Below are positions 14,880-53,951 of a DNA stretch of 64,000 bases, in pieces. A program made the translations under genes and the position numbers. The notes beneath the pieces are model-generated. The model ran no database searches, was not told the origin of the DNA, and worked only from the letters and a program-made list of their open reading frames with translations. How positions within the stretch are numbered: position 1 is the stretch's first letter; each line of letters begins with the position of its first letter. Origin of the DNA: Solirubrobacter pauli (GTDB taxonomy: Bacteria > Actinomycetota > Thermoleophilia > Solirubrobacterales > Solirubrobacteraceae); contig NZ_RBIL01000001.1 of NCBI RefSeq assembly GCF_003633755.1, forward strand, positions 186,001-250,000, written 5' to 3'.

Positions 14880-15544
14880 TCAGCAATGTGCGGGCGTCGC
14901 TACCGGCCGGTCCACTACGCACCGAGCGGCTCACCCTCCGCTCGGCCACCGCCGCGGATGCCGAAGCGACCTGGGCGTTCCGCAGCCTGGAGTCCGTGAA
15001 CCGCTGGCTCAGCGGCACCCCGGCCGACCTGGATGGCCACAGGGCGCGGTTCTCGGAGCCCGCACGGCTCTCGTCGACCGTCATCGTCATGCTCGGCCAC
15101 GGCGAGGACGCGCCCATCATCGGCGACTGCATGCTGCGCCGCGAGGACGGCTGGGCGCAGCTCGAGGTCGCGGACCGGGCCCGAGCGGTGCAAGCCGAGC
15201 TGGGCTGGCTCCTCGACCCCGCGCATACCGGCCGCGGCTACGCCACCGAAGCGGTCCGCGAGCTGATCCGTCACTGCTTCGAAGACCTCGGCGTGCGCCG
15301 CGTCACCGCGACGTGCTTCCTCGACAACGACGAGTCCTGGCACCTGATGGAGCGCGTCGGCATGCGCCGAGAGTCACACGCACGCCAGGACGCGCTGCAC
15401 CGCTCCGGGCACTGGCTCGACACCGTCGGCTACGCGCTTCTCGCTGCCGAGTGGCGTCCCCAAGGTGTGGCTGGCACCACCAAGCAGGCACGACCAGCCA
15501 CACCCGCAGACGCCAGCTTCCTCCCCAGAGCGACGGGGACGTGA
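14876..15544 (+). CDS. GNAT family N-acetyltransferase (RimJ-like)
   Basis: 222 residues from the ATG in the ATGA overlap with the preceding gene. It opens with LRTERLTLRSATAADAEATW, the usual start of RimJ/RimL-type GNATs. The acetyl-CoA pyrophosphate loop is in DPAHTGRGYATEAVREL, followed by VTATCFLDNDESWHLMERVG. It probably acetylates an N-terminal or small-molecule amine with acetyl-CoA. A ~25-residue low-complexity tail follows the domain. Confidence 0.85.
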   Translation: MISNVRASLPAGPLRTERLTLRSATAADAEATWAFRSLESVNRWLSGTPADLDGHRARFSEPARLSSTVIVMLGHGEDAPIIGDCMLRREDGWAQLEVADRARAVQAELGWLLDPAHTGRGYATEAVRELIRHCFEDLGVRRVTATCFLDNDESWHLMERVGMRRESHARQDALHRSGHWLDTVGYALLAAEWRPQGVAGTTKQARPATPADASFLPRATGT

Positions 15545-29076: not shown

Positions 29077-31647
29077 TCACGGCGTCGTCGTGGACAGCGT
29101 GAAGGTCAGCGTTCGCGTGTACGCGCCGGTGCGCAGCGCGTCGGTCGCCTTGATCAGCTGCTTGAAGGCGACGTCGACGCGGTCGTTGGACACCGGCGCC
29201 GACCACGCGCTCTTCGAGAGCGAGACGCGCAGCGGCTCCGGCAGCGAGAACGCGCCGTTGGCGAGGTGGCCGGGATCGGAGACCGTCAGCGCCGCGTCGC
29301 CCGCCGTGGAGATGACGTTCGCGGTCGTGGTGGTCGCGTACTCCTGCTCGACGCCCGGCGTGAAGGTGCCGAACGTCGCCGGCGTGCCGAGCGTGAGCGA
29401 CAGCGTCGCCGCCACCTCACCGCCGGCCGCTCCCGGGACGTCGACGCCGTACGGCGCGCAGCCGCCGGTCGCGTCGTAGAAGCCGCCGCCGGCCAGCCCA
29501 GGCCCGGTGATCTGCGGCTTGTTGCCGGCCGCCGGAGAGCCCGTGTACGGCGTGTCCCACCACTGCTTGAAGAACTCCTCGAGCTTGTTGTGGCAGGCCG
29601 GGGACTGGTTCGGCAGGTACTTGTGGAACTCGGCCTTCAGCGGGGCCTCCTCCATCGAGCCGCCGCGGTAGGCGACCTGGATGTGCCGGAGCGCGGCGTT
29701 GTAGTTCTCTCTGCCGAGGATCGCCCGCAGCGCCAGGTACGACGTGCCGGGGCGCGTGTAGGCGTTCGACGTGCCGTTCATGGACGCCGACGTCGGGTTG
29801 CTCGGCGCGGTGTTCCAGAACGTGGTGGAGGTGCTGTTGTAGTTCTGGTTGAAGCGGGCCACGAGGCTCGCCTCGAACGCGGCGTCACCGGCCGTGGTGC
29901 CCTGGCCGCCGGCGGCGTTGGCCGCCGCCAGAGCGGTCTGGTAGTACTCGGCCGTCGTCGCCTGGCCTTCCTTGAACCACATCAGCTTGGGCGCGCCCTC
30001 GGCCACGTTGTCGCCCCACCACTGGTGCATGTTCTCGTGGGCGAACGTGTTGACGTTCGTGCCCTGCGCGCCGCCGATGGTGCCGCCGACGAAGACGATC
30101 TTCGTCTGCATCTCCTCCTCGAAGCTCGCGCTCGGGAGGGCGACGACGATGCCGTTGGCGTTGAACGGGAACGGCCCCGTGATCGACTCCTGGAAGTGCG
30201 TGATGCTCTCCTGCTGGTCCATCGCGACGCGGTTGAGCGCCTTGCGCGCGGGCGTGATGTTCGCGTCCTGCGCCTCGAAGTAGACGACGTCGTTCGCGCC
30301 GTCACGGAACGTGTAGTCGAAGTTGCCGACGCTGTTCTCGACCAGGTAGTTGGCGATCGGCTCGCTGGACTTCCAGTGGTAGCTCGTCGAGCCGGCGGGG
30401 AAGTTCGCGCTCGGGGCGTCGTCGCCGGAGCTCACCAGCCGTCCCGGCCCGATCGCGAGCTTGCCCTTGGTGACCGTGTCGTAGATGTCGTACGTCGGCT
30501 TGACCGACGGGTGGTTGTTGAGCGGCATCCACGCCTCGGTGCCGGTCGGCTCGGAGGTGACCATCGCGCCCTCGCTGCCGGCCGTGCTGTTGCGGAACCA
30601 GCCTTCGGTGCCGGTCGGCGACGGGCGCACGCCCGGGCGGCCCGTGTAGTTGACCGTGACCGTGAAGTCGGTGCCGGTCGGGATCGGCGCGCTGGGCGTG
30701 ATCACGAGCTTGGTCTCACCGCAGGGCAGGTTCTGGTTGGCGGCCTGGGTGTTGATCGGCGGGCACGCGGGCGGGTTCGGGTTGGCCGCGTTGATCGGCG
30801 TGACGAGGCCCGTGCGATGCGCCAGCGGGTCCGGGTCGTCCTGCCCGTTGGGGTCGCCCGGGTAGGTCGGCTGCTTGAACGTGAAGGTCGCCGGCTGCCC
30901 GTTGACCGTCACCGACTGCACCGTGAAGTCCGGGCCGGGCACGGTCGTCGACGTGATCGTGTTGTGCCGGTCGAAGTCGAGGCTGAAGTCCGCCAGGCAC
31001 TGCGTCGAGCGCTGCAGGAGGTCGACGTGCGTGCCGGGCAGGAACAGGTTCGTGAGCGCGTCGTAGTTGATGAAGACGTCGCTGTGGAGGCTCGCGTAGC
31101 CGCCGTTGCCGATGTCCGGGTACACGCGATCGCCGGGCTTGGCGAGCGTGCGCGCGCCCGAGGTGCAGTCCTCGGCCGCGGCCGCGACCGCGCCGGTCCG
31201 CTTGGCGGGGAGCCGGACGGCCGAGCCGCGCACCGGCGTTCCCCCGTGGACGCGGATGTCGCGCTCCGAGGTCGCGCAGCCGAGCCCGTGGGCATCGGTC
31301 GACGACGGCGTGCACGCCGCCAGGTAGTAGTTGCCGCGGCTGAGCCCGTCCGGCAGCCGCACCGCCACCGCGTACGGCGTCGTCGCGCCCGCGGGCACCG
31401 TCACGGACGTCCGGCCGACGAACAGCGCCTTCGCGCCGGTGCGCTGCACGCGCACGGTGACCGGCGCGATGACCGTCCGCGCCGTCCGGTTGACCACTTC
31501 GCCGCGCACGGTGCCGGCCCGTGCGCCGGAGGCCAGCGAGCTGACCGAGCCCACCGACACGCCGGGCGCCGACGCGAACGCCGGACCGGCCGTCACCGCG
31601 AAGGCAAGCAGCGCGACGCCGCCGGCGCGCGCCCTGAATCGAGACAT
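29077..31647 (-). CDS. Secreted M1 family metallopeptidase with C-terminal WxL-like domain
   Basis: 856 residues from ATG 31647 (GGAGGG ribosome site 8 nt upstream; an earlier start lacks one). After the signal peptide there is an Ig-like region (~30-130), an M1 N-terminal saddle domain, and the gluzincin centre FAHENMHQWWGD (His537, Glu538, His541) with Glu560 in MWFKEGQATTAE: HExxH-18-E. The exopeptidase motif in the saddle domain is not a clear GAMEN (SASFEEEMQ). The last ~115 residues are the shared domain ending LTFTLSTTTP. It likely cleaves peptides outside the cell and is held at the surface by its C terminus. Confidence 0.9.
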   Translation of the reverse strand: MSRFRARAGGVALLAFAVTAGPAFASAPGVSVGSVSSLASGARAGTVRGEVVNRTARTVIAPVTVRVQRTGAKALFVGRTSVTVPAGATTPYAVAVRLPDGLSRGNYYLAACTPSSTDAHGLGCATSERDIRVHGGTPVRGSAVRLPAKRTGAVAAAAEDCTSGARTLAKPGDRVYPDIGNGGYASLHSDVFINYDALTNLFLPGTHVDLLQRSTQCLADFSLDFDRHNTITSTTVPGPDFTVQSVTVNGQPATFTFKQPTYPGDPNGQDDPDPLAHRTGLVTPINAANPNPPACPPINTQAANQNLPCGETKLVITPSAPIPTGTDFTVTVNYTGRPGVRPSPTGTEGWFRNSTAGSEGAMVTSEPTGTEAWMPLNNHPSVKPTYDIYDTVTKGKLAIGPGRLVSSGDDAPSANFPAGSTSYHWKSSEPIANYLVENSVGNFDYTFRDGANDVVYFEAQDANITPARKALNRVAMDQQESITHFQESITGPFPFNANGIVVALPSASFEEEMQTKIVFVGGTIGGAQGTNVNTFAHENMHQWWGDNVAEGAPKLMWFKEGQATTAEYYQTALAAANAAGGQGTTAGDAAFEASLVARFNQNYNSTSTTFWNTAPSNPTSASMNGTSNAYTRPGTSYLALRAILGRENYNAALRHIQVAYRGGSMEEAPLKAEFHKYLPNQSPACHNKLEEFFKQWWDTPYTGSPAAGNKPQITGPGLAGGGFYDATGGCAPYGVDVPGAAGGEVAATLSLTLGTPATFGTFTPGVEQEYATTTTANVISTAGDAALTVSDPGHLANGAFSLPEPLRVSLSKSAWSAPVSNDRVDVAFKQLIKATDALRTGAYTRTLTFTLSTTTP

Positions 31648-31737
31648 GGATAGATCCCTCCGTAGACCCACTCGCGCGCTGGCGCGCGAGCAAACGGCGA
31701 GACCGTGGCAGCCCCAGATGAGACCGCGGCGAGTCTC

Positions 31738-34137
31738 TCATGTTTCTGGATCGGCTTTGTCCAGTTTCGCTGCCGGCCAGCCGTGAGCCTCGAAGAACGG
31801 CATCCGCGCCAGATCAGGATCGGCCTGCTCGGCTGCGAGCAACGCGATGCCGACGCTGCCCTTGTAGAGGCTGTCCACTCGCCCTTCGGACTCGGCCGGC
31901 GTGATCTGCGCGGCGGCGCGGCTCGCGAGCACCCGGGCGCGGTGCAGCCAGGCCGCGTCCCCGGTGTGGCGATGCAGCGCCAGCAGCGCGTACGCCCGGC
32001 CGCCGCGGCCGCAGCACAGCTGGCCGATCTGGTCATCGGCCTCCCACGCGTTCCATGCCGCGCCGTGCGCAAGCGCGCCGAACCGCGGGTCGCGGTACAC
32101 CTGGTCGGCGAGGGCCCACAGGTAGACGTGCCCGGCGCTGCCGTTGCACCAACCGGTCATGTGCTCACGCCCGCCCGCGACGACCGGCCAGCGACAGCCG
32201 CGCCGGTGCGGCTCGGCGAGCTGCGCGAGCTCCTCGAGGCGCCCGGGCAGCGTGTCCGGCGGGGCGCTCCGCGTCACCGCGGTCCAGCGCAGCGTCGCGT
32301 AGAGGATGCCGGCCCAGCCGTGCGCGATGCCGAGGTAGCGCAGCTCGGGCGCGCTGCTCACGGACGCGTACGCGTCGAGCTCGGCCCAGATCCCGGTCAG
32401 CGTCTGATCGCCCAGCGCGATGAGCGCCGGCATGTCCGGCCCGAGCGCCTCCAGCAGCTGCGCGCAGGCGAGCAGCGTGCTCGCGCGGCCGAGCGTGAGG
32501 TCGAGGTTCGCGCACGGGGCGACCGAGGCGTCGATGAACCCCTGGACGGCGGCGAGGGCGCCGTACGCGTCGCCACGCGCGTGCGCGACCAACGCCGCGA
32601 CGCACCACGCGCCGGCCGCCGTGTGCAGCGCGGAGATCGGTCCGACGGTCCCGGCCGTGAGCTCGATCTCGTCGCTCGTCCAGGCGTCGTCGTCGCCGCG
32701 GTGCGCGAGCGCGCGCGTGCACCACACGTCGGCCAACGCCAGGAGCTCGGGCTCCGCCCGCAGCCCGGCCAGCCGGTAGAGCGCGTAGGCGATGCCGGCG
32801 GCCCCGTAGTTGACGGAGCTGGTCGGCGCGACCGGCAGTCCGGTCGGGAAGAACGGGCCGTCGGGGCCGACGCGCGCGAGCACGGCGTCCACCAGCGCGT
32901 GCGCGTGCCCGAGCTCGACCGGACGAGCCACGGCCGGGTGCGCCGTGCGGACCACCCCGTCCAGCGCTCGCGCCAGCGCCGCCACGTCGGGCAGCCGGTC
33001 CTCCGGCCGCTTGGCGAGGCAGGTGGCGAGCACCGCCTCCAGCTCCGGCCAGGGCGCGACACCCGCCGCCGTGAACGGCTGCGGTGGGTCCTCGGCGATC
33101 TGGCGCAGCAGCTCGCCCTGCTCAAGGGCGAACTCGTGCGGGTGCGCACCGGTGGCGAGCACATACAGGAGGGTCGCGAGCGCGTGCTGCTCGCCGGCGA
33201 AGCTCGACGGCGGCGCATGCTGCCCGCCCCGGACCGCCGAGGCGTACTCGGGCTCGAAGTAGAACGGGATGCCGGCACGCGGCGCGAGCGCGAGCAGCGG
33301 GTCCGCGCTGTCCGGAAGCCGCGCGACGCCGAAGTCGAGCAGACGCACGGCGCCGTCCGGCCCGACCAGCAGGTTGTCCGGATGCACGTCCGAGTGCAGG
33401 GCGCCGCGCGCGTGCAAGCGCACGTACGCGTCCGTGATCGCGCAGCACAGCCCCGCCAGCTCCGCGCGCGCGTCCTCGCGCCGCAGCTCGTCCGCCGCGA
33501 CCCGCGCGGGCACCCCGACGATCCACTCGAGCACCAGGTACGGGCGCCCGCCCTCCTCCCCCGCCGCGAGCAGGCGCGGCGCGGGGTCGCCGGCGAGGTG
33601 CTCGAGCAGCGCCGCCTCGCGCGCGGCGAGCCGGGCGACGTGCGGGCGGCCGGCGGCGACGAACAGCTTCAGCGCCGCGACGGTGCCGTCGTCGCCGCGC
33701 ACCTGGTGCAACTCGGTGTCCTCGAGCACCTGGATCGGGGCGACGACCTCCCACCCGGCGAACCGGTCGCCGGGCATGAGGCTGAGGCCGATCGCCGCCT
33801 CGCGGCCCGAGTCGGCGGCGACGAGCACGCCGGAGTCGATCAGCCGCTGCAGCATCGGGTACGCGTCCTCGAGCGTGCGCGCCGGATCCTCCCCGCGCTG
33901 CTGGCTGAACGCGATCACCGCGTCGACGATCCGCGCGGGCGAGCGGAAGCGCTCGAGCAGGTCCGCGGACGGCTCGTCGACGACGCGGGAGCCGCTGCGC
34001 GCGCCGGGACGGGTGACGAGGAACTCGTCGTCGGGCGCGTCGAGCGCGCGCCGCAGCTCGGGCGACAGCTCCACGACCGGCACGATGGTCACGTCAGGCG
34101 GGACCACGAACACGTCGGTGATCGTCCCGGTGCTCAT
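31738..34137 (-). CDS. Ser/Thr kinase-LanC cyclase fusion (lanthipeptide-synthetase-like)
   Basis: 799 residues. Residues ~36-106 resemble a PqqD/RRE-like peptide-recognition domain (DDEFLVTRPGARSGSRVVDE). A protein kinase domain follows: Lys157 (VAALKLFV), HSDVHPDN (Asp250, Asn255) and DFG (Asp268). From ~410 a LanC-like alpha/alpha toroid has His606 (IAHGWAG), GWCNGSAG (Cys664) and QLCCGRGG (Cys708-Cys709). The usual CHG zinc motif reads CCG, giving three Cys ligands as in the ProcM-like group. There is no N-terminal phospho-lyase domain as in class III/IV enzymes. The ATG overlaps the upstream gene stop (ATGA). It should phosphorylate Ser/Thr of a substrate and catalyse thioether closure. 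Confidence 0.83.
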   Translation of the reverse strand: MSTGTITDVFVVPPDVTIVPVVELSPELRRALDAPDDEFLVTRPGARSGSRVVDEPSADLLERFRSPARIVDAVIAFSQQRGEDPARTLEDAYPMLQRLIDSGVLVAADSGREAAIGLSLMPGDRFAGWEVVAPIQVLEDTELHQVRGDDGTVAALKLFVAAGRPHVARLAAREAALLEHLAGDPAPRLLAAGEEGGRPYLVLEWIVGVPARVAADELRREDARAELAGLCCAITDAYVRLHARGALHSDVHPDNLLVGPDGAVRLLDFGVARLPDSADPLLALAPRAGIPFYFEPEYASAVRGGQHAPPSSFAGEQHALATLLYVLATGAHPHEFALEQGELLRQIAEDPPQPFTAAGVAPWPELEAVLATCLAKRPEDRLPDVAALARALDGVVRTAHPAVARPVELGHAHALVDAVLARVGPDGPFFPTGLPVAPTSSVNYGAAGIAYALYRLAGLRAEPELLALADVWCTRALAHRGDDDAWTSDEIELTAGTVGPISALHTAAGAWCVAALVAHARGDAYGALAAVQGFIDASVAPCANLDLTLGRASTLLACAQLLEALGPDMPALIALGDQTLTGIWAELDAYASVSSAPELRYLGIAHGWAGILYATLRWTAVTRSAPPDTLPGRLEELAQLAEPHRRGCRWPVVAGGREHMTGWCNGSAGHVYLWALADQVYRDPRFGALAHGAAWNAWEADDQIGQLCCGRGGRAYALLALHRHTGDAAWLHRARVLASRAAAQITPAESEGRVDSLYKGSVGIALLAAEQADPDLARMPFFEAHGWPAAKLDKADPET

Positions 34138-35294
34138 GCCTGCCTCCAGATCGCCTGGGTCGGTGCCCACGTGGCCGGGTCCACGCCCTCGAGGCGGATC
34201 CGCTCGAGGGCGTACCGCCACGGCTCACCGCCCGCTCCTGCGCGTGCGCTGAGCACCGCCGCGGCGAGCCGTACGCACAGCCACAGCCGCCAGCTCTCGT
34301 GCCCCTGCAGCCCGGTCGTCTGCGCGTGCGCGGGCGGGTCCGTGCCCCACGACAGCAGGCCCGCGGGGTCGATCTCGGCGGTGAACGGCACGCCGTGCGC
34401 GGGAACGCCGTCGAGGCGCTCCCGTAGGCGCTCACCCGCGACGGCGAGCCGCTCGAACCGGTCGAAGTAGGCGACCAGCTTGTCCGGGCGCAGCACGCCG
34501 TCGACGTCCGCGCCGACCTTGAACGCGGCGGCGCGCGTCTCGGCGAGCACGTCGACGACATCCGGCAGCACGTCGACGAGCACGTCGGGTTGCGGGCTGA
34601 CGTACAGCTTGAAGGTGCCATCGCCGTGGTCGTGCTCCGGCGGTGCGCCCCACGACAGCCACGGCGACTCGTTGTCGGTGGTCCTCGTCGCCGTCCAGCG
34701 TCGCCCGATCGTGCGCGTCAACGGCATTCCGGCGGCGACGCCGAGCTGCTCGGCCAGCGCCGCCCGCGTGGGCAGCCGTCGCCGCCACAGCGGGGTGAGC
34801 GGCAACCGGTTGTAGCTGTACAGGCGCCCGGCCAGCACGGTCGTGTCGTCCAGCTCGAGCCGTTGGCCGTAGTGGAGCGCGGCGACCGACAGCGCGGCGA
34901 TCCGCCCGTCTCCGTTCGCCGGCTCCGGCGGCGGCGCCAGCAGCGCCAGCGCCTCCGCGCCGGCGACGAAGCGTCCGCCGGCATCGATCTCCAGCACCCC
35001 GTCGAGCACGAGCCGCGTGACGGTCGGACGCAGGTCCGCGCCGAGCAGCGAGTGCACGTACCGGGGCAGCCGGCCGGGAGTGCGCAGCGTGAGGTACAGC
35101 AGCGCCGTGTCCCGGTCGATCGCCTTCGGATGCCGCCCCGGGCCGGGCGTCCGCGGGAGCAGGACCCCGTACAGGTCGGGGTCCTCCTCCGCCAGGCCGA
35201 GGGCAGCCCGCTGATCGGCCCCGAGCCGGTCCACCAGGATCAGCTCGAACGCGTCGTTGGCGCGGAAGTCCGACGCCGCGATCCTGTCGAGCAC
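34134..35294 (-). CDS. HopA1-effector-like protein, candidate phospho-Ser/Thr lyase
   Basis: 386 residues, soluble. The C-terminal half has TDNESPWLSWGAPPE and FKLYVSPQPDVLVDVLPDVV, then AAAFKVGADVDGVLRPDKLV, recalling the HopA1 effector family (also LxmY of class V lanthipeptides), where a basic pocket binds phosphorylated residues. The N-terminal half is helical and unrecognised. It lies between the Cys-repeat gene (21 bp upstream) and the kinase-cyclase (4-bp overlap). The inferred role is elimination of phosphate from Ser/Thr to give dehydro-residues, filling the lyase step missing from the kinase-cyclase. The GTG start at 35294 follows a GGCGGAGG ribosome site. Confidence 0.7.
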   Translation of the reverse strand: MLDRIAASDFRANDAFELILVDRLGADQRAALGLAEEDPDLYGVLLPRTPGPGRHPKAIDRDTALLYLTLRTPGRLPRYVHSLLGADLRPTVTRLVLDGVLEIDAGGRFVAGAEALALLAPPPEPANGDGRIAALSVAALHYGQRLELDDTTVLAGRLYSYNRLPLTPLWRRRLPTRAALAEQLGVAAGMPLTRTIGRRWTATRTTDNESPWLSWGAPPEHDHGDGTFKLYVSPQPDVLVDVLPDVVDVLAETRAAAFKVGADVDGVLRPDKLVAYFDRFERLAVAGERLRERLDGVPAHGVPFTAEIDPAGLLSWGTDPPAHAQTTGLQGHESWRLWLCVRLAAAVLSARAGAGGEPWRYALERIRLEGVDPATWAPTQAIWRQA

Positions 35295-35315: not shown

Positions 35316-36050
35316 CTAGCCGTCCTGGAGCTTCTTCTTGCGCTCGGCGAGCTCCGCCAGCGCCTCGTTGAGCTGGCCCTCGAGCGCCTCGATCGCCTCC
35401 ACGCTCTGCGGCGCCATCTGCTCCTTGAGCGCCTCCTCCTGCACCTCGACCTCCTTGAGCGCTTGCTGCAGCTGCGCCTTCAGCGCGGCGAGCCCTTCGG
35501 GTCCCTCCAGCGGATCGATGATCGAGCCGCGGCACGCGATCGTGCCGGGGCAGATCGTGCCGCCGAGGCACCCCGAGCCGGCCGGGCAGTGCGAGCCGAG
35601 GTCGCAGATCGAGCCGATCTTGCAGATGGTGTTGCCGGGGCAGATCGTGCCGCCCGCGCACAAGGTCACGCCCGCGCACAGCGACTCACCCGCGCACGAG
35701 ACGAGCTGCGAGCAGCCGTCGCAGAACGTCGGCGACCCGCACAGCGTGCCGCCGGCGCAGGAGATCGCCACCGAGCAGCCGCCGCAGTGCGTCGGCGAGA
35801 GGCACAGGGAGTGCCCCGCGCACGAGACGGCGATCGAGCACGCCCCACAGGCGGTCGGCGCCGCGCACAGCGTGGGGCTCGCGCACAGCGTGCCACCCGG
35901 GCACAAGGATGGTGTGCCGCAGTTGCTCCCTGCGGGGCACAGCGAGGGTGTCCTGCAGAGCGTGCCCACCGGGCACGGCGCAGCGACTCCTCCTACCGCC
36001 TGGACATCGGGAACGACGTTGATGACCAGGTCCCGGACACGGAAAGCCAT
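35316..36050 (-). CDS. Cys-grid repetitive protein, candidate giant RiPP (lanthipeptide-type) precursor
   Basis: 244 residues. A short N-terminal segment (MAFRVRDLVINVVPDVQAVG) precedes a core, residues 26-173, with 27 cysteines. Every neighbouring pair is exactly six residues apart, except three 3-residue steps (68-71, 89-92, 110-113). Nineteen cysteines have Ser or Thr at position -2 (TLC, SLC, TIC). Residues 68-130 are three 21-residue repeats of type CxxCSxxxSCAGxxLCxxxxx. Residues ~180-244 form a coiled-coil tail (LAALKAQLQQALKEVEVQEE). ATG 36050 has a GAAGGGAGAG ribosome site. First gene of the operon with the HopA1-like and kinase-cyclase genes. Alternatively a Cys-bridged beta-solenoid resembling insect antifreeze proteins. 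Confidence 0.75.
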   Translation of the reverse strand: MAFRVRDLVINVVPDVQAVGGVAAPCPVGTLCRTPSLCPAGSNCGTPSLCPGGTLCASPTLCAAPTACGACSIAVSCAGHSLCLSPTHCGGCSVAISCAGGTLCGSPTFCDGCSQLVSCAGESLCAGVTLCAGGTICPGNTICKIGSICDLGSHCPAGSGCLGGTICPGTIACRGSIIDPLEGPEGLAALKAQLQQALKEVEVQEEALKEQMAPQSVEAIEALEGQLNEALAELAERKKKLQDG

Positions 36051-36154
36051 AAGCCCACTCTCCCTTCGCGGTGACGCGGTTGTCGCTCGACCCTACAGGC
36101 GTTCACCGATCGGTAGGGATTTCTTTTTCATACTCCGGAATCCGGGCTGACCGT

Positions 36155-36190: not shown

Positions 36191-39100
36191 TCAGCGTCGC
36201 GCGGTCTTGGCCCTGGCCTTCTGCCTCGTCTTGATCTTGCGCTTGGCGGACGGCTTGCGCTTCGCCTGTGGCTTGGCCTTCACCGGCGGCTTGCCCACGG
36301 CCGGAGCGGGCGGCGCGAACGCGGGCGCCTGGACCGGCAGCGCCGCCGCCGGCGCTTCGGGCGCCGCCGCGACCGTGGTCGTCTTCGGCGCCGCGGTGCC
36401 CGTGCGGCGAACGGTCACGGCCGCCGCGCCGTAGGTCGGGACGTAGCCGCCGGTGACCGCGCCGAACGTGCCGGCGACCGCGCCGGTGATCACCGGCACG
36501 TCGCCGTTGACGGCGGCCGGCGCGACGACGTCCAGCCGCCCGCCGAGTTGCGCCGCGCCGGTCACGGCGATGCGCCCGGAGGACGCCGCGGTGAGCGTCG
36601 GGCGCAGCACCGCGCCCGCCGACTGGGTGAAGCCGCCCGCGTTGAGCGTCGAGCCGGCGCCGAGCGCGAGCACGCCCTGGTTGGCGAACGTGCCGGCCGC
36701 GGTCAGCGAGCGGCCGCCGGCCAGCTCGAGCGTGCCGCCCGCGGCGTTGCGGACGAACCCGGTCAGCGCGTCGCGGGCGACCACGCCGGTCCCGGTGAGC
36801 TCGGTGAACAGCACCTGCGATCCGGCGTTGAGCACCAGCCGCGCCGCGTTGGCCTTCAGCGCGCCCGGGAGCACCAGGCCCGCGCCGTTGCCGACGAGGT
36901 AGGTGCCGCCCGCGAGCGTGCCCTCGCCGCCGAACAGCGGGCCGCTCCAGTTGAGCAGCTCGGGCAGCTCGAGGCGGCCGTCGAGGATCTCGACGGTGCC
37001 GTCGTTGTCGATCGTCGCCTCGGCCACGGCGCTGCCGGTGCCGCTCTTGCGCAGCGTGCCCGTGTTGTGGATGAGCCCCGCCTCGCCGTAGCCGAATCGG
37101 TAGGCGGAGTCGTCGAGCTTGGCGGTGCCGTCGAGCACGAGCGTGCCCGTGTTGCGGACCGCGGAGCCGCGCTCCATCCACACGGTCGCGTCGTCGATCG
37201 TCAGCGTGCCCGCGTTGCGCAGCTCGCGGTCCTCGTCGAGCCGGACGTCGTCGGTGATCGCCGCCGTCGCGCCCGCCGCCAGCACCGTCGCGCCCGGTCC
37301 GGTCTGGTCACCGTCGGACCAGGCGAACGAGCCGGTGACGGTCAGCGCGCCCGTGCCGGTGACGCTGCCGCCGGTCTGCCTGAGCGTCGCGACCGTGACG
37401 GGCCGCAGCACGCGCAGCTCACCGCCGGCGACCTCGGTGGTGCCGGTCAGCGTCGCGCCGGCGTCGACGACGAGGACGCCGTCGCCGAGCGTGATGTCCT
37501 TGAACGCGCCGGTGTGCGTGACGGCCTCGTCGCTCTCGAGCTCGAGCGGGCCGTTGATCGTGCCGTCGTTGTCGACGACGAGCCGCAGGTGCGACGCGCT
37601 CGTCCCGCCGGTCTTCTCGATCGTGCCCGTGTTGAGCAGGGTCGCGTCACCGTGGATGCCGGACGAGGTGCCGCACTTGTCGTCGTTGGGCGTGTCGAGC
37701 TCGATCCGGCCCGCGTTGGTGATGCGGGTGTCCTCGAAGGTGCCGAGGTCCGCGCCCTTCTCCAGCCGCAGCAGGCCCTGGTTGACCAGCACGCGGCCGT
37801 CGTCCATCGACGCCGAGCCACAGCCGAAGCTGGTCAGCGGCGTGATCACGATCCGCCCCGTGGGCGTGACGGTCGTGGTGCCCGGCCCGTTCTGGCGGCC
37901 GCCGTCCCACGTGATCCGGCCACTGACGTTGAGGTTGCCGGTCAGCGCGCCCGCGCGGTGGATCACGGTGCCCGCGATCGTCAGCGTGTCGCCGGGCCGG
38001 ACCGACAGCGCGTCGGCGATCTCCACCGTGCCCGGCAGCTGCACCGCCCCGGTGAACGTGCGCTCGCCGACGAACACGACGCGGTTGGCGGCGTCGGCGC
38101 CGGTGAACGTGCCCGTGTCGGGCTCACCGGTGCCCACTTCGAGGCGCAGCTCGCCGACCTTGCCGTCGACCGTGCCGACGTTGTGCAGCGGCGCGCCGAT
38201 CGTCGAGCTCGTGCCCGCGGTCTTGGTCAGCGTGCCGAGGTTCTCGATCCGCTCGGCGGGGGCCTCGAAGTCGTCGAACACCATCGACGTGCCGCGCGCG
38301 TCGATCACGCCGCGGTTCTCGAGCACGCGCCCGCCCGTCAGCGACGAGAAGCCGTTGAGGATCAGCGTCGCGCCGGCCGCGACCTTCGTGGTCGCGGGGC
38401 CGGCCATCTTGCCGTCCGTCCACTCGAGCGTGCCGGTGATGTCGGCCGCGGCGGCGAGCGTCCCGCCCTCCAGCCGCGCCGTGACGATCCCGACGGCACC
38501 GTTGACCGTGGCGCCGCTGATGACCGTGCTCGCGGTCAGCTTGGCGCCCGCGCCGAGCTCGAACGTCCCGCTCTTGAGCGTCGCGCCGGCGAACTCGCCG
38601 GTCGAGACGTCCTTGCCGCCACCGCCGAGCGCGATGTCCTTCACCAGGCCGTCGTTGTCGACGGCGGCGGTGGTGCCGTTGGCGCCGGTGCCAGTGCGCT
38701 TGAAGGTGCCGCCGACGTGGATCGACGCGCCTCCGGAGCCGTTGATGGTGCGCGCGTCCCCCGCCATGTCGAGCGTCCCGACGACGTCGAGCACGCGGCC
38801 CGCCGCCAGCGACGTGTTCGCGCTGTGCGTGAGCGTGCCGGTGATCCGGGTCGTGCCCGCGCCGGTCATCGTGCCGCCCGACCACGCGAAAGCGCCGCCG
38901 AAGACGAACGTGCCGGTGCCGCCGAGCGTGCCCGCCGACATCGTCGTCGCGCCGCTGCCGGTGACGGTGCCGGTCGCGTTGACCGTGCCGCCGTCGAGCG
39001 CCGCGTCGGTGAGCTTGGCCCCGCTGGAGAGCTCGAACGTCCCGGAGTGCAGGTGCGCGCCGGCGAACTCGCCCGTCGAGCCGCTGCCGCCGCCCTCGAG

Positions 39101-40096
39101 CTCCACGTTCTCGATCCGGCCGTCGTTCTCGACCGCCGGGTACAGCTCGACCGGGCCCGTCGGCGCAGTGCGCTTGATCGTGCCGGTGTTCTTGATCAGC
39201 GGCGTGCCGGAGCGGTTGATGTAGCGGCCGTCCCCGGCGAGGGCGAGCGTGCCCTCGATCGCGAGCGTGCGCGTGTCGGCGAGCGACGTGTTCGCCGTGT
39301 GCGTCATGGTCGACGTCACGCGCGTGGTGCCCGTGCCGCCCATCGAGCCGCCCGACCAGGTGAACGGGCCGTTCACGTGCAGCGTGCCGGCGCCGCCGAC
39401 CGTGCCGGTGGTCATCGCGCCCGACGCCGTCACGGTGCCGGTCACGTTGACCGTGCCGCCGTCGAGGGTCGTGCTCGCGAGCGCGGCGCCGTCGCCGAGC
39501 TCGAACGTGCCCGAGTGCAGGTTGACGCCGTCGAATGCGCCGGTGGAGCCGCTGCCGCCGCCCTCGAGCTCGACGTTCTGGATCAGGCCGTCGTTCTCGA
39601 CCGCCGCGTAGATCTCGACGATGCCCGTCGGGGCGGTGCGCTTGATCGTGCCCGTGTTGCGTACCAGCGGGGTGCCGTTGCGGTTGATGTACTTGCCCGC
39701 GCCGGCCAGCTCGAGCGTGCCCTCGATCGCCAGCACGCGGGTGCTTTCGAGCGTCGTGTTCTGGGTGTGTGTGAGCGTGCCGGTGACGCGGGTCGTGCCC
39801 GAGCCGCCCATCGAGCCGCCCGACCACGTGCCCGAGCCCATCGTCAGCGTGCCGGAGCCCAGCAGCGTGCCGCCGAGGTCCAGCCGCGCCACGCTCGCCG
39901 TCGTGTCGAGCGTGACCTGCTTGCCGCTCGGGACGATGGCCGTGTCGCCGGCCCCGGGCACGCTGCCGCCCGACCAGCTCGCCGCGGTCGTCCAGGCGCC
40001 GCCGTTGGGCCCGGTGTAGGTGATGTCGGCCGCCTGGGCCGTGCCGCCGAGCGCTGCGAAGGCAGCGAACGTGGCGAGTGCGATCCGTCGCTTCAT
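36191..40096 (-). CDS. Giant secreted parallel beta-helix (autotransporter-passenger-like) repeat protein
   Basis: 1301 residues from ATG 40096 (signal peptide MKRRIALATFAAFAALGGTA). The body is built of G/T/S-rich solenoid repeats. A ~180-residue supra-repeat recurs at least three times, with segments such as FTWSGGSMGGTGTTRV, LAIEGTLALAGDGRYI, NTGTIKRTAPTG and ENVELEGGGSGSTGEF. This is typical of right-handed beta-helix adhesins and PL-6-like folds. The protein ends in a Lys/Arg/Ala/Pro tail (QAKRKPSAKRKIKTRQKARA), suited to binding wall polymers or the membrane. The gene starts 2 bp after the RHS-like gene stop, so they form one operon. Confidence 0.8.
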   Translation of the reverse strand: MKRRIALATFAAFAALGGTAQAADITYTGPNGGAWTTAASWSGGSVPGAGDTAIVPSGKQVTLDTTASVARLDLGGTLLGSGTLTMGSGTWSGGSMGGSGTTRVTGTLTHTQNTTLESTRVLAIEGTLELAGAGKYINRNGTPLVRNTGTIKRTAPTGIVEIYAAVENDGLIQNVELEGGGSGSTGAFDGVNLHSGTFELGDGAALASTTLDGGTVNVTGTVTASGAMTTGTVGGAGTLHVNGPFTWSGGSMGGTGTTRVTSTMTHTANTSLADTRTLAIEGTLALAGDGRYINRSGTPLIKNTGTIKRTAPTGPVELYPAVENDGRIENVELEGGGSGSTGEFAGAHLHSGTFELSSGAKLTDAALDGGTVNATGTVTGSGATTMSAGTLGGTGTFVFGGAFAWSGGTMTGAGTTRITGTLTHSANTSLAAGRVLDVVGTLDMAGDARTINGSGGASIHVGGTFKRTGTGANGTTAAVDNDGLVKDIALGGGGKDVSTGEFAGATLKSGTFELGAGAKLTASTVISGATVNGAVGIVTARLEGGTLAAAADITGTLEWTDGKMAGPATTKVAAGATLILNGFSSLTGGRVLENRGVIDARGTSMVFDDFEAPAERIENLGTLTKTAGTSSTIGAPLHNVGTVDGKVGELRLEVGTGEPDTGTFTGADAANRVVFVGERTFTGAVQLPGTVEIADALSVRPGDTLTIAGTVIHRAGALTGNLNVSGRITWDGGRQNGPGTTTVTPTGRIVITPLTSFGCGSASMDDGRVLVNQGLLRLEKGADLGTFEDTRITNAGRIELDTPNDDKCGTSSGIHGDATLLNTGTIEKTGGTSASHLRLVVDNDGTINGPLELESDEAVTHTGAFKDITLGDGVLVVDAGATLTGTTEVAGGELRVLRPVTVATLRQTGGSVTGTGALTVTGSFAWSDGDQTGPGATVLAAGATAAITDDVRLDEDRELRNAGTLTIDDATVWMERGSAVRNTGTLVLDGTAKLDDSAYRFGYGEAGLIHNTGTLRKSGTGSAVAEATIDNDGTVEILDGRLELPELLNWSGPLFGGEGTLAGGTYLVGNGAGLVLPGALKANAARLVLNAGSQVLFTELTGTGVVARDALTGFVRNAAGGTLELAGGRSLTAAGTFANQGVLALGAGSTLNAGGFTQSAGAVLRPTLTAASSGRIAVTGAAQLGGRLDVVAPAAVNGDVPVITGAVAGTFGAVTGGYVPTYGAAAVTVRRTGTAAPKTTTVAAAPEAPAAALPVQAPAFAPPAPAVGKPPVKAKPQAKRKPSAKRKIKTRQKARAKTARR

Positions 40097-40098
40097 CG

Positions 40099-43000
40099 TC
40101 ACATTCCGATCTCGGCGAGCTGTCGGCGCACGCCGCTGTTGATGGATCCGTAGTCGCGCTGGTTGCGCGCGTGGTCGAGGCCCTGGTCGAGCGTCTCCTC
40201 GACGGCCTCGGTCGGCGTGAGGTTGACCGGCAGCACCTTGTCGATCACCTTCAAGCCGCACTTGAGCCAGGCGACGGCCTGCTCGGGCAGCGACTCCTTC
40301 TGCTCGCCCTCGTAGATCTCCATCGCGCCCTCCGCGATCTCGACCGCGGTGTCGATCTTCTCCAGGCCGTCGTTGAGCTTGCCCGCGGTCTCGACGATCG
40401 GGTTGTCCTCGAGCGGCAGCTCGGAGACGGTCTCGATCGCGTCACGGCCGTCCTCGCTCCGGACCCAGTCGACGACCTTGTTGAAGCCGCCGACGATGCT
40501 GTCGACGACGCCACCGCCGGTGCTGCCGCCACCGGCGCCCTCGTCCATGCCGGACGGGTCGCGCTTGCCCACGGGGTCGTTGCCCGCGTAGACGAAGACG
40601 TTCATGCCGCCCTCCTGCAGGATCGGGTCGCGCGCGGTGAAGCGGCCCGTGGCCGGCTCGTAGTCGCGCAGGCCGAAGCGCACCAGGCCCGTCACCGGGT
40701 CCTCGATGCCGCCCGCGAAGCCCAGCGGGATCTCGAACGTGCCCGTCTCGGCGGCCTTGTTGCGCACGCCGAACGCGTTGCCGGCGTACGTCTTGACGAC
40801 GGCGCCGGCCGCGTCGGTGATCACGCGCGGCGTGCCGACCTGGTCGGTGCCGACGTAGTACCGCGCGCCGCCGCGCTCGAGCGCGAACAGCAGGTCGTAG
40901 CGGTCGTAGAAGTACTGCGTGACCTCGGTGCCGACACGGCTCGCCGACACCTGAAACGGGCGCGACGCGTCCCCGTACAGGAACTCGGTGCGCACGCCGC
41001 CGGCGACCCGCGCCCGCAGGCGCCGCGACGCGTCGTACTCGTAGGTGACGGTCGTGCCGCCGACCGTGGCGGACTTCAGCTCACCCTTGTCGCCGTAGGT
41101 GAACGTGTCCGCGCCGCGGCTGACGAGGAAGCCCGCCGCGTCGTAGGTGTGCGTGCCGGTCATCCGGTCGTCGTCGGCGTACGACTTCCCGGCGCGGTTG
41201 CCGTTGACGTCGTACGTCCAGGACTCGTTCGCGTCGCCGGAGACCGACTTGAGCTCGCCGTCGGGGAAGTACGTGTAGTCGTAGGTCTTGGTCGTCCCGT
41301 TGATGGTCTCGACCCGCTTGGTGATGCGGCCCGAGTCGTCACGGGTGACGACGTTCTCGTAGCGCTTGGCGCCCTTGACGGTGAGCGCGCGGCCCTTCGC
41401 CGCACCCGCGTTGTCGTAGGTCAGCGCGAGGCTGAGCGCGTCGTCCGTGATCTTGCTGACGTCCCCGAGCGGGCCGCCGCGCTCGTACGTGAACGGGCCG
41501 TAGCCGGTGAGGTTGCCGTCGTCGTCACGCGTGAGCGCGCGCTTGGGCGTGCCGGCGAGCTGGATCGACTCCAGCTGCATGTCGGCCCCCCAGCCGTACG
41601 TGAACTCGCCCGCGCTCGTCTGGAGCAGGCCGTCGAAGGCGAACGCGTCGGTCTTCGCGCCGCGCGTGGCGGACGTGATCCGCGTGGTCGCGTCGGCGTA
41701 GCCGAACGTCGCCTCGCCCACCCCGGTCAGGCGGCCGTCCGTCTTGCGGGCGTAGGACGTCGTCCCGCGGCCCGGCAGCGTGACCGACTGCAGGTAGTGG
41801 TCGTCGTCGTAGGCGCGCGTCTGCGGGGACACCCCCGGCGCCGTGTACGACGTCAGGTTCGCGGTCGGCGAGAACCCGTACGTGTGCGTCTTGCCGCTCG
41901 GCATCGTCACGCCCGTGCGGTTGCCGGCGTCGTCGTAGGTGAAGCCGTAGGTGTGGCCGCTCGGCAGCTTGACCGAGGTCACGCGCTCGACGCCGTCGTA
42001 GCCGTACGTGACCGTGCGGCTCTCGCCGTCCGTGCGCGTCAGCAGCCGCTGCGGGCGCGTGGCGTCGTAGCCGTAGGTAATCTCGCGCGTGCCCTGGACG
42101 ACCTTGGCCAGGCGGCCCTTCGCGTCCCACGTCATCGTGCGCGGCACGATGCCCGTCCCGTAGCTGTGCGTGACGGGATGGCCCTTGGCGTCGAAGGTGG
42201 TCGAGACCTCGCGGCCGGACGGCGACGTGCTCGTCAGCGTCCGGGTCGTGCCGTCGTACTCGCGCCGTGACGTCTTGCCGTTGATCGTCGTCTCGTCCGC
42301 GAGCGTGTCGATGCTGAACGGGCTCGCCGGCGACTTGAGGTCGACCGTGCGCTCGTTGGTGGTGACCTTCGTGCGCCCGTCCGGCGTGCGGACCGTGGCG
42401 CGGGCCGTGTAGGGCGCGCGCATGCCCCACCGCGGGTCGCCCGCGAGCGTGGTCGTGACCACGGTGCCGTCGGGCTGGGTGACGCGCGTGACGCCGTCGG
42501 CGCCGTACTCCATCACCGACTTGGCGCCGGACGGGTCGATCGTGGTCGAGCGCGTGCCGCCGCCGGGGAGCTGCTCGGCCTCGAACGTCGTCAGCTTGCC
42601 CAGGTCCGACGTGCGCTTGATGCGGTAGCCGGTCGCCGTCGCCTCACGCGTGAGCGTGACGATCGAGCCGCTCTTGTCCTCGTCGGTCTTCAGCCGCCCG
42701 GTGGCGGCGTCGTAGGTGAAGTGCGCGTCCTTGCCGAGCGGGTCGGTGAACGTCTTCAGCAGGCCGCCCGGCGTGTAGTCGAGCGTGTGCGCTTCGTTCT
42801 CCGCGTTCTTGACCTCGCCGAGCATGCCGTCGGGACGGATGGTGAGGCTCGTGCGCAGGTTGCCGGGCGCGACGATCGCGGTCGCCTTGCCGGCACCGTC
42901 GCGCTCGATCGTGACGACGTTGCCGTCCCCGTCGGTGACCGTCTTGAGCCGGCCCGCGGCGTCGTAGCCGAACGTGAAGCGGACGACACCGGTCAGCGCC

Positions 43001-46000
43001 TCCAGCGTCTTCAGGTGGCGGCCGGAGCGGTCGAACAGGAACACCTGCGTGCCGTCCTGGCTCGGGAGCGAGAAGTCGGCGTCGACGAAGCCCGGCAGGC
43101 CCGGCGAGACGCGGCGGATGCGCGCGTTGCCGGTGTCGGCGATCTGCACCGACTGGTCCGGCGCGACCGTGACGTCCTCCGGGAACGTGAGCTGCGCCTG
43201 GGCCGGCGCGTTGCCGTCGCCGGCGTCGCCGCTGCGGCCGGTGCCGGCGTAGACGGCGACGGTGCCGTCCTTGGCGATCCGGCGGACCAGGTGATGGATG
43301 CGGTCGGAGACGTAGACGGTGCCGTCGTCGGCGACGTCGAGGCCGTAGGCCTGCCCGATGTCCGCGGCCAGCGTCGTCGCCTCGCCCTGGGCGGTGAGTT
43401 TGACCACGCGCTCGTTGAGCGCGTCGGCGACGAAGACCGACCCCTCGGCGTCGACGGCGACGTCGGTCGGCAGGTTCAGGTCCGTGGTGAGCGTGTTGAT
43501 GCGCCCGTCCGGCGCGACGCGGCGGACGCGGTTGCGGCCGGCCTCGGCGATGTAGAGCGTGCCGTCGGCGGCCAGCGCGAGACCGCGCGGCTGCTTGAGG
43601 CTCGCGCTCGTGGCCGGGCCGCCGTCGCCGAGCGTGTCGGGGTCTCCCCCGCCGGCGAACGTCGACCGGTTGCCGAGCGGGTCGATCTTGACGATCCGCG
43701 CGTTGCCGGTGTCGGAGATGAAGAGCGTGCCGTCGTCGGCGACGGCCACGTCACGCGGCGCGGTCAGGCCGTCCTCGTCGTCGGCGACGATGTGCACCAT
43801 GCCGTTCTTGTCGACCTTGAGCACGCGGTCGGCGCCGGTCTCGGCGACGTAGATCGAGCCGTCGGCGCCGGCGTCGGTGCCGCGGGCGGTCTCGAGCGGG
43901 AACATCGTCGCCGGCTTCGTCGGGTCGACGTTGCCGTCGGACACGCCGACCGCGGTGTCGAGCTCCGCGCGGATCGCCTCGGTGGTGACCTTCGAGCCGT
44001 CGCCCTTGTAGAGCGTGCGGGCCTGCGGGTCGTAGGCGTGGTGCACGTCGAGCGTCCAGCCGCCGAGCGCGTCGCTGCCGGCGCCGAGGACGCCCACGGG
44101 GCGCTCCCACTCCTGCCAAGCGATGATCTCGCGGCGCGACTCGTCGTCGCCTCCCGCCTCGTTGCGGGTGACGGGCGCGCCGCCGAACTGGCCGAAGGAC
44201 GCCTCGAACTCGGACGCCTCCAGGTACTCGGCCGCGTACACGTAGCCGATCCGCACCTCGGCGTTCTGCGCCCCCTCGACCGTGCGGCCGTAGGCGTCCA
44301 CGCCGTCCCACTCGAACGTGTGCTTGAGGTTCGCCTTGGGTGTGAACGTCTGACGGAACTCCTGGCCGGCGACGGTCACCTCGAGCTCGACGCGCTTCAG
44401 GCTCGGCTTGATCGACGCGCCCGTCAGCGGGATCTCGAGCCGGTAGGCCTCCTTGTAGCCGGGGACGCGGCCGGAGTTGTAGTAGAGGTTGAGGGGCGTG
44501 CCGGGGACGGAGAGGGTCTCGCCGAGCGTCTGGTTGAAGACGCCGATGATCGAGCCGGCGGCCTCGCACTCGGGGCAGTAGGGCGGGGGCGGCGGCTCCT
44601 CGTCCGGGGCGTCGCAGTCGGCCTTGCAGCCGTACGGCCAGTTGTAGTCCCAGGGCGTGAAGTGCTCGACCTCGACGCGCCACAGCGACTTGCCGGCGCC
44701 GTACTCCTGGGCGAGCTTCGTGCGCTCGGCGTCGTCGAGGCCCTGGTTGTCCGCGGTGCCGTCGCCGTCCGTGTCGACGTTCGCGCGGCCGCCCGACTCG
44801 CTGATGATCTTGATGACCACGCCGTTCTTGGACGGCACCCACGCGCCCTTGGCCTCGTCGTAGTACGCCGACGGCACGATCGTGCCGGCCTTGAAGCCGA
44901 GGAAGTTGTCGACGTAGGTCGTGACCGGCTTGGTGAACTTGACGTCGGTGGCGCCCGCCTCGACGGCGTCATCGACGGAGAACTCGACGGCGTAGGTGTA
45001 GGCGGAGCTGTCCGGCAGCTCGCCCGGCATGCGCTCCTCGCCGTTCGCGCCGACCGTGTACTCGGTCGCGCGGACCTCGAGGTCGCCGAGCGGCTTCGTC
45101 TGGCCGTTCGGCAGCGTCATCGTGGCGTCCGTGCCGGGGTCGAACATGAGCGTCGCCTGGCGCGGATCGCTGTCGTCGGCCGGCGTCGTCTCGCTCGTGG
45201 CGACCTGCAGCGTGTCGGCCTTCTCCTCGATCTCCGTGACCTTCGCGTCGTACGGGGTCATCACCACGTCGGCGATGTCCACGTAGTCCTGCCACGGGAT
45301 CGGCTCCGTGCGCTGGACGCTCATGAAGCCGTCCTGCTCGAACGTCAGCGTGAGGTCCGCGCCACCGTTGACGGCGAGGTCGTAGCCGCCGTCCTCACGG
45401 GTCGCGGTGTAGCCGAGCTCGGAGTGGTCGAGCACGGTGACGCGCGCGCCCTTCATCGGCGTCCCGTCGGCCTTGAGGACCTTGCCGCGGACGACCGCCA
45501 CCTGCTTGTCGGCGATCGTGCTGGGCTTGACCTCCTTCTGGATCGGGTTGCTGCCCGTGTAGAGGAACTCGGTGCCGTCGGCGACCGTGGTCGGCTTGCT
45601 CGGCTCGGGCGCGGGGGCGACGTCGGCCGGGTCCGCGGCGGGGGTGAGCGGGGGCTCAGGGAAGTCGGGGGTCGGGGTGGCCGTGACCGTCGGGGTCACG
45701 GTGGCGGTCGCCGTGGCGGTGGCGGTGGCGGTGGCCGTTGCGGTGGCCGTGGGCGTCGCGGAGGCGGTGGCCGTCGCGGTGGCGGTCGGGCCCGGGTTCG
45801 GGTTCGGGTTCGGCGCCGGCTGCGGGACGGGCTGCGGCGCCGGGCCGGGAGCCGGCGTGGGCTGCGGGCCGGTGCGCACGGTGATCTCGCCCGAGGCGCG
45901 GCAGTTGTTCTTCTCGTTGCGCTCGCGGACCTTGTTCTTCGGGTCCGCGCAGGCGATCACGCGGTACGTACCCGCGGGCACCGTGAGCGTGTACGTCGCC

Positions 46001-46275: not shown

Positions 46276-46439
46276 GGCGGCGTCCGTACCTTTATTGCGA
46301 TTCCTGGGGAGTGCCGACAGGCTCCCGGAGCGGACCGCCACGTTACGGGCGGTTACCCACACACCCACAGCGCGGGGACCACCACACCGGCGGTGCGGGA
46401 ATCACGCCGATCGAAGGATGTACGTGCGACCCTGTGGCG

Positions 46440-53912: not shown

Positions 53913-53951
53913 CAACTTCTCCCCCTCGTACTTCTGCGAACCGGAGGCGTA

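Follow-up and report, generated by a model that had tools for sequence, protein, structure and literature searches.

Among ribosomally synthesised and post-translationally modified peptides (RiPPs), the ranthipeptides carry Cys-X3-Asp thioethers formed by radical S-adenosylmethionine (SAM) chemistry, and the prochlorosin enzymes ProcM and SyncM apply class II LanM chemistry to small peptides with few rings, which are closed in both directions. Rings with Cys as the first residue are described for SyncA6 as 'CS-CS directionality' in a passage of PMC9872173, and passages of PMC10783134 and PMC12328550 tie the CCG motif of the cyclase to ProcM-type substrate tolerance. For class V, passages of PMC9486802, PMC10604976 and PMC12328550 describe a kinase that is APH-like and a cyclase that, where present, is separate. 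Here we analyse a stretch of 64,000 nucleotides from Solirubrobacter pauli (contig NZ_RBIL01000001.1, positions 186,001 to 250,000; hereafter the window), in which a gene for a Cys-rich protein heads a compact minus-strand operon, followed by genes for a HopA1/LanY-type phospho-Ser/Thr lyase and for a Ser/Thr kinase fused to a zinc-type LanC. Judged by sequence and predicted structure, the product of this gene is probably the precursor to a lanthipeptide-like RiPP of very large size, in which up to 27 small (methyl)lanthionine rings would form, each of Cys-first polarity. The initial annotation had proposed a giant RiPP substrate cross-linked by thioethers, at the head of an operon with modification enzymes. 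Our results support a substrate-type gene next to lanthipeptide dehydration and cyclisation enzymes, and the substrate idea is the best explanation of the data; the ring partner, which the -2 position of that annotation would put upstream, lies most likely C-terminal of the Cys (C-X2-4-S/T).

The precursor gene and its Cys grid

The 27 Cys occupy residues 26, 32 and onwards to 173, and the 26 spacings between them comprise 23 of six residues and three of three. All 27 fall into a single residue class modulo 3, a result reached in none of 100,000 permutations (combinatorial chance 3e-15). The exact 6/3-residue grid that had been reported, with no strand given, is thus genuine. Every Cys has a private Ser/Thr partner downstream, at +4 (22 Cys), +5 (three) or +3 (two), and the three +5 partners sit in CxxCSxxxS modules. 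An earlier count of Ser/Thr at -2 of 19 of the 27 Cys was correct, though +4 is occupied for 22 of 27; the -2 residues are explained by the downstream rule, which echoes within the six-residue period. The parts of the gene are as follows.

36058-36066, minus strand: Shine-Dalgarno-like AAGGGAGAG, 7 nucleotides 5' of the precursor ATG, read by eye
35316-36050, minus strand: precursor protein, 244 residues with 27 Cys; ATG start at 36050, stop codon at 35316-35318
35976-36050, minus strand: leader-like segment, residues 1-25 (MAFRVRDLVINVVPD...); the family form is often like M.FRVKDLMINVLP
35523-35975, minus strand: Cys core, residues 26-176, with a private Ser/Thr for each of the 27 Cys
35661-35849, minus strand: three 21-residue repeats, residues 68-130 (68-88, 89-109 and 110-130), each starting CxxCSxxhS
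35322-35501, minus strand: helical-hairpin tail, residues 184-243, by AlphaFold2 and tail profile

The repeats, the short N-terminal segment and the helical tail had all been anticipated and are present, the tail as two AlphaFold2 helices (184-212 and 217-243) with block means of 81-98 for the predicted local distance difference test (pLDDT). The unmodified core was modelled with block means of 40-59 and two short strands. Against Pfam, the tail reached E 0.02 at best, and no signal peptide was seen by eye. The G+C content at third codon positions (GC3) is 0.92 in this gene and 0.93-0.97 in the three genes that come next. A precursor profile (A8), which contains this very sequence, matched the window gene in its own genome at E 4.2e-28.

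Lyase and kinase-LanC

The precursor and lyase genes are separated by about 20 nucleotides, and the stop codon of the lyase gene overlaps the likely ATG of the kinase-LanC gene as ATGA. Residue numbers of the latter count from the listed open reading frame (ORF).

34134-35294, minus strand: LanY/HopA1-type phospho-Ser/Thr lyase, 386 residues, predicted by fold
31738-34137, minus strand: Ser/Thr kinase fused to LanC, likely ATG at 34137; the listed ORF starts with GTG at 34221
33820-34116, minus strand: PqqD-like or RiPP recognition element (RRE)-like N-terminal part of kinase-LanC, suggestive only, by hhalign
32938-33693, minus strand: kinase domain with Lys, HxD and DFG elements (Pkinase, E 3.1e-11)
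31789-32826, minus strand: LanC domain with C692, C736, C737 (CCG type) and H634 (LANC_like, E 7.9e-24)

Profile searches of the Protein Data Bank (PDB) sequences with the lyase and with the N-terminus of the kinase-LanC gave nothing significant, and the identity of the lyase therefore had to come from fold comparison. Foldseek with the predicted fold returned LxmY, HopA1, class III lyase domains and SpvC/OspF as best matches, and a VIA comparison gave Z 16.2 to 4rsx and 15.8 to LxmKY, which bears out the HopA1 label of the initial annotation. Pfam HopA1 was matched by only two of 30 family members (best E 7.5e-4) and not by the window lyase itself. Residues Lys229, Tyr231, Lys259, Arg269 and Tyr276 are invariant in all 30, and the spacing of K259-R269-Y276 is identical to that of CaoY K219-R229-Y236 as given in a passage of PMC9486802. 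By reading of this spacing, Lys229 seems to occupy the place of CaoY Arg187 and Tyr231 that of SpvC His106.

All 24 aligned members of the kinase-LanC keep the kinase Lys and HxD; DFG is kept in 21 and reads DLG, DYG or DFA in the other three. C692, the CCG pair (C736, C737) and H634 of LanC are invariant in the same 24. These conserved residues, like those of the lyase, stand at catalytic positions. The genome has one LanC match in total, and the kinase domain was useless as a family marker, with matches in 294 of 299 genomes. The N-terminus aligned with the PqqD profile in hhalign at a probability of 45% (E 2e-4), compared with 0.2% for the full lyase; Pfam PqqD was matched in two of 24 members (best E 0.012), not above matches to unlike families. 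Residues 3-108 of the lyase show a weak fold likeness to RREs, with VIA Z of about 7 to NisB and TigE, a value that the tool calls common. RRE-like domains in the N-termini of both enzymes are therefore suggestive only; a passage of PMC10604976 states that an RRE is not identifiable in class II-V enzymes.

Distribution of the cassette

A plasmid protein search with both enzymes found the pair in Paenibacillus peoriae and Cupriavidus oxalaticus (38-41% identity), and an alignment of three lyases run against 84,980 species genomes added 30 loci, this pattern-based scan being no census. The lyase profile matched four of 396 genomes of the window's phylum, including its own (one match is weak, with E 4.8e-7 over 88 positions), and supplied two new loci, L120 and L121, each with a kinase-LanC. 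Altogether, the lyase was found in 34 loci besides the window, from about ten phyla, with a kinase-LanC nearby in 33. For the 32 loci numbered L044-L075 the count is 31, some of these kinase-LanC genes being cut by contig ends and the contig of L064 stopping just past the lyase; in L073 the kinase-LanC is split into two pieces. Tree labels assign the hosts, many of them metagenome-assembled genomes (MAGs), to Acidobacteriota, Actinomycetota, Pseudomonadota, Bacteroidota, Gemmatimonadota, Nitrospirota, Elusimicrobiota, Vulcanimicrobiota and Nitrososphaerota (one MAG), and Bacillota (L044) is the tenth phylum. The cassette is rare: a single-protein search of 299 genomes in the window's class matched its own genome alone. 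The closest partner of the window gene in a tree of the lyases is that of Amaricoccus, a pseudomonadote (95/87), which suggests transfer.

The MAG of L052 (7733-8467) is labelled as a Nitrososphaerales archaeon, and a binning error is possible. LanB-type ORFs adjoin the precursor in L045 (16982-20146, minus strand; Pfam-tested) and L055 (6255-9422; by eye). Both Cupriavidus loci hold a stray copy of the N-terminal segment of kinase-LanC, in L045 inside the ORF at 14336-15409 on the minus strand.

Precursor family

Whether Cys-rich homologues keep company with kinase-LanC/HopA1 genes had been posed as a check: a precursor adjoins the enzymes in 32 of the 35 loci (window, L044-L075, L120 and L121), and in L056, L067 and L073 the contig ends before one could be seen. 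Family members share a leader of the form given above, a Cys core very variable in length and spacing and, mostly, a helical tail. The coiled-coil follower, which the initial annotation regarded as an oddity for a RiPP, is thus frequent across the family, and the tail profile also picks up relatives that are not part of it, among them L044, L045, the first copy in L050 and L120. In 21 genomes the precursor profile matched at the enzyme locus in 20 (the L075 host was unmatched); most enzyme-locus sequences belong to the profile, so matches there are expected. Homologues away from the enzymes would have spoken against a dedicated substrate, and the same 21 genomes held one weak stretch only, at E 0.006 and with three stop codons.

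Two precursors are present in each of L050 and L074, and in L061 the precursor lies downstream of the kinase-LanC. Nine precursors other than the window's were compared with Pfam: L045 matched nothing and eight others reached E 0.03 at best. The repetitive L044 precursor matched 25 families weakly, with DUF760 over the whole-protein cut-off and no single stretch passing; this is taken for an effect of its repeats. Against NCBIfam, eight precursors gave E 0.002 at best, far under cut-off. In direct homologue searches with the window precursor, matches to plasmids of Haliscomenobacter, Klebsiella (two) and Staphylococcus were rejected as low-complexity or out of frame, and one in relatives as a collagen-like repeat.

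The Paenibacillus plasmid precursor of L044 (9801-10553) is built of three consecutive leader-core-tail units, two with the core CGITCLASCG and one with CTITCLASCG. The L052 precursor consists of two tandem units, the first without Cys, and the Chitinophagaceae precursor of L071 (9309-9938) has a period of about ten residues (TCKRTNDDDI repeats), with Thr at +3 of most Cys.

A downstream spacing rule

L048 and L045, which nearly duplicate L047 and L055 respectively, are omitted from the spacing counts, and of L052 only the second unit is taken. Shuffles hold the Cys positions fixed, and the window of +3 to +5 was picked after the offset table of the first set of 25 precursors, which includes L075, a sequence matched by neither profile. 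Without the window protein, the other 24 precursors have Ser/Thr at +4 of 125 of 239 Cys (48.7 expected, z 14.2), and at +2 Ser/Thr is depleted (10 vs 51.2). Private pairing at +3 to +5 accounts for 252 of 266 Cys in the first set (shuffle mean 134, highest of 300 shuffles 150; means of 129-134 depending on flank length), and the mirror window of -5 to -3 for 133, at a mean of 132.8. The excess does not hang on the window protein (225/239 without it, z 17.6), and 147 of 159 Cys pair, vs 71.4, when L046, L050 and L051 are left out as well. In both reduced sets, too, pairing at -5 to -3 stays close to chance.

Seven precursors were added later: L052, L064, the second copy in L074 and L061 by leader or tail profiles, L120 by the tail profile, L065 by eye, and L121, chosen by eye for its Cys core although the tail profile gave the better score to an overlapping frame (7.5e-4 vs 0.022). 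They pair 33 of 36 Cys at +3 to +5 (16.8 expected, none of 2000 shuffles as high); for the mirror window the count is 18 of 36 (16.7 expected). Over all 32 precursors, 285 of 302 Cys are paired (shuffle mean 146, z 19.7). The rule also holds in relatives with other Cys spacings (4, 7, 10 and 12). A CxxC[ST]xxx[ST] pattern occurs in 12 of the 32, and L120, in which 13 of 13 Cys pair, has CGPCSQLIS where the window protein has CDGCSQLVS.

Alternative readings

The same precursor and enzymes could make rings of the usual polarity, in which Ser/Thr precedes Cys (T-x-C or S-x-C, offset -2), an outcome that we regard as unlikely. It would accord with the 19 window Cys that have Ser/Thr at -2, with the offset of -2 alone in the family (z 3.1) and with upstream pairing over 32 precursors, which reaches 201 of 302 Cys at -3 to -1 (z 7.3) and 179 at -4 to -2 (z 4.6). 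Position +4 is far stronger, and 24 of 25 precursors pair more Cys at +3 to +5 than at -3 to -1. Once the +3 to +5 partners are removed, the upstream excess is gone (51 vs 49.0 at -3 to -1, z 0.4; z 0.7 at -4 to -2), whereas the downstream excess survives removal of the -3 to -1 partners (136 vs 71.6, z 11.9) and of the -4 to -2 partners (z 12.8). Because the loss is not mutual, the upstream signal looks like an echo of dense Cys, and these offset and partner-removal tests led us to set aside Ser/Thr at -2 as a ring rule.

An unmodified Cys-rich beta-solenoid with disulfides or a Cys ladder, antifreeze-like or of the left-handed hexapeptide type, appears less probable still. The hexad of the hexapeptide beta-helix is [LIV]-X3-[STAV], which C-X3-S/T would imitate, so that the strict period of six and the Ser/Thr at +4 both suit such a fold, and the Cys count is even in 18 of 26 precursors. 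In the window protein the count is odd and no signal peptide is evident by eye, no Pfam hexapeptide family is matched up to E 1, relatives with other Cys spacings (4, 7, 10 and 12) follow the spacing rule too, and enzymes adjoin every precursor found. The fibre or solenoid shape and the disulfide alternative raised in the initial annotation gain no support from AlphaFold2, whose low-confidence core contains no solenoid, a weak negative that excludes little. Lowest in our estimate, and very improbable, is dehydration with few rings, in which dense Cys would serve metal or redox binding and the dehydro residues would act as electrophiles; it fits poorly with the near one-to-one private pairing of Cys with Ser/Thr and with the retention of the zinc-type LanC residues.

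Several points weigh against the precursor being a substrate for Cys-first rings, the upstream pairing just described among them. Seventeen of 302 Cys are unpaired at +3 to +5, and one precursor of 25 pairs better at -3 to -1. As controls, 162 long frames running from stop to stop in the loci, taken without a check that they are genes, also show excesses, at +4 (186 of 1327 Cys vs 150, z 3.2) and at +5 (z 4.6), but the former is far under the 125 for 239 Cys, vs 49, of the family. Spacing statistics point to a constraint and show no bond. The precursors of L065 and L075, matched by neither leader nor tail profile at E 5, were assigned by eye, the assignment of RREs is weak, and the two Cupriavidus loci have an ORF of the class I LanB type, with the kinase-LanC on the opposite strand about 1 kb off. 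No recurrent dedicated protease or exporter was seen across the loci, which is unusual for a RiPP.

Proposed pathway

If the window protein is the precursor of Cys-first rings, its strand-like leader at the N-terminus (MAFRVRDLVINV) would dock it on the enzyme pair, perhaps together with the helical tail. The kinase domain would phosphorylate Ser and Thr of the core, the LanY/HopA1-type lyase would eliminate the phosphate to give dehydroalanine and dehydrobutyrine, and the CCG-type LanC domain would add each Cys thiol to the dehydro residue three to five positions downstream. The predicted product has 22 C-X3-S/T, two C-X2-S/T and three C-X4-S/T rings, with overlapping pairs at the three CxxCSxxxS modules; its core would consist of rings, mostly of five residues, linked in a row by single residues, between the leader and the helical hairpin. 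With no dedicated exporter or protease seen to recur, the product may be retained in the cell. We hold it an even chance that the product is a structural cell protein built as a chain of rings, not a secreted antibiotic, with the hairpin retained, and that it stems from a bipartite synthetase class outside those listed in reviews (LanY-type lyase and kinase-LanC, possibly with RRE-like domains) that follows the C-X2-4-S/T rule for up to about 33 Cys.

Such a minimal three-gene cassette for thioether stapling, spread over distant phyla, would follow a simple code in which every Cys forms its ring with a Ser/Thr lying three to five residues downstream. One type of enzyme would then handle cores of 3 to 33 Cys, ring polarity and iteration would be directly testable, and the system could become a tool for long stapled polypeptides.

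Neighbouring genes

ORFs of at least 90 residues common to at least three loci comprised the lyase, the kinase-LanC, ORFs antisense to them and three further groups, which by Pfam are two-component regulators (one group in five loci, another in three) and sortilin-type or M4-peptidase proteins some kb off (three loci). None of the three further groups is a constant partner. Ten neighbour genes, drawn from nine loci on the basis of length and GC3, fell into nine unlike Pfam families, with no family for the tenth; neither a peptidase nor a transporter was among them. An M1-type peptidase downstream in the window (29077-31671) was considered as maturation protease but is not counted as part of the cassette, since neither the shared groups nor these ten neighbours include a peptidase as constant partner.

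Three likely secreted proteins of the window (23463-25271, 29077-31671 and 48555-53915, minus strand) have C-terminal stretches that look alike by eye (LSLTLG...F..F.PG...). A 2089-residue ORF with YD/RHS-like repeats, also read by eye (40099-46368, minus strand), lies next to a large repeat ORF (36191-40261) and the cassette.

Comparison with known lanthipeptide classes

As in lanthipeptide loci in general, a precursor with Ser/Thr and Cys lies beside dehydration and cyclisation enzymes. The enzyme arrangement agrees with no class definition in full, classes IV and V each sharing one defining feature with it and differing in another, and a search of open-access papers found neither the arrangement nor the precursor family described. 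No class I LanB was present among the scanned window genes, although one lies beside the precursor in L045 and, by eye, a similar ORF in L055. For class II, the LanM model covers residues 472-795, the LanC part of the kinase-LanC (54.9 vs 304 bits), and no LanM dehydratase domain was matched. The zinc-type Cys C692, C736 and C737, kept in 24 of 24 members, set the enzyme apart from class III, where the cyclase has no zinc ligands. No radical SAM family was found in the scanned operon genes; repeated C-X3-X units with a +4 partner are a feature that the window protein shares with ranthipeptides, and the CCG-type cyclase motif is one that the LanC of the window shares with ProcM and SyncM.

With class V, represented by LxmKY of lexapeptide and CaoK/CaoY of cacaoidin, the cassette has in common a separate HopA1-type lyase, whose K...R...Y residues are spaced as in CaoY and whose predicted fold is that of LxmY. 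Unlike in class V, the kinase is of the PF00069 type and fused to LanC, and an invariant Lys seems to replace CaoY Arg187. The kinase passes the cut-off of PF00069, an APH-type kinase (PF01636) was not matched in Pfam, and one NCBIfam APH model gave E 0.19 (11.2 vs 205 bits). A PF00069-type kinase followed by LanC in one chain is found in class IV LanL and class III LanKC, and zinc-type Cys as in LanL are present. In contrast to LanL, the lyase has a gene of its own and carries an additional N-terminal part, the kinase-LanC chain has no lyase match, and its LanL equivalog score is 144 at a cut-off of 650. If the proposed pathway holds, this enzyme arrangement would stand between classes IV and V and would bear on the evolution of the lanthipeptide classes.
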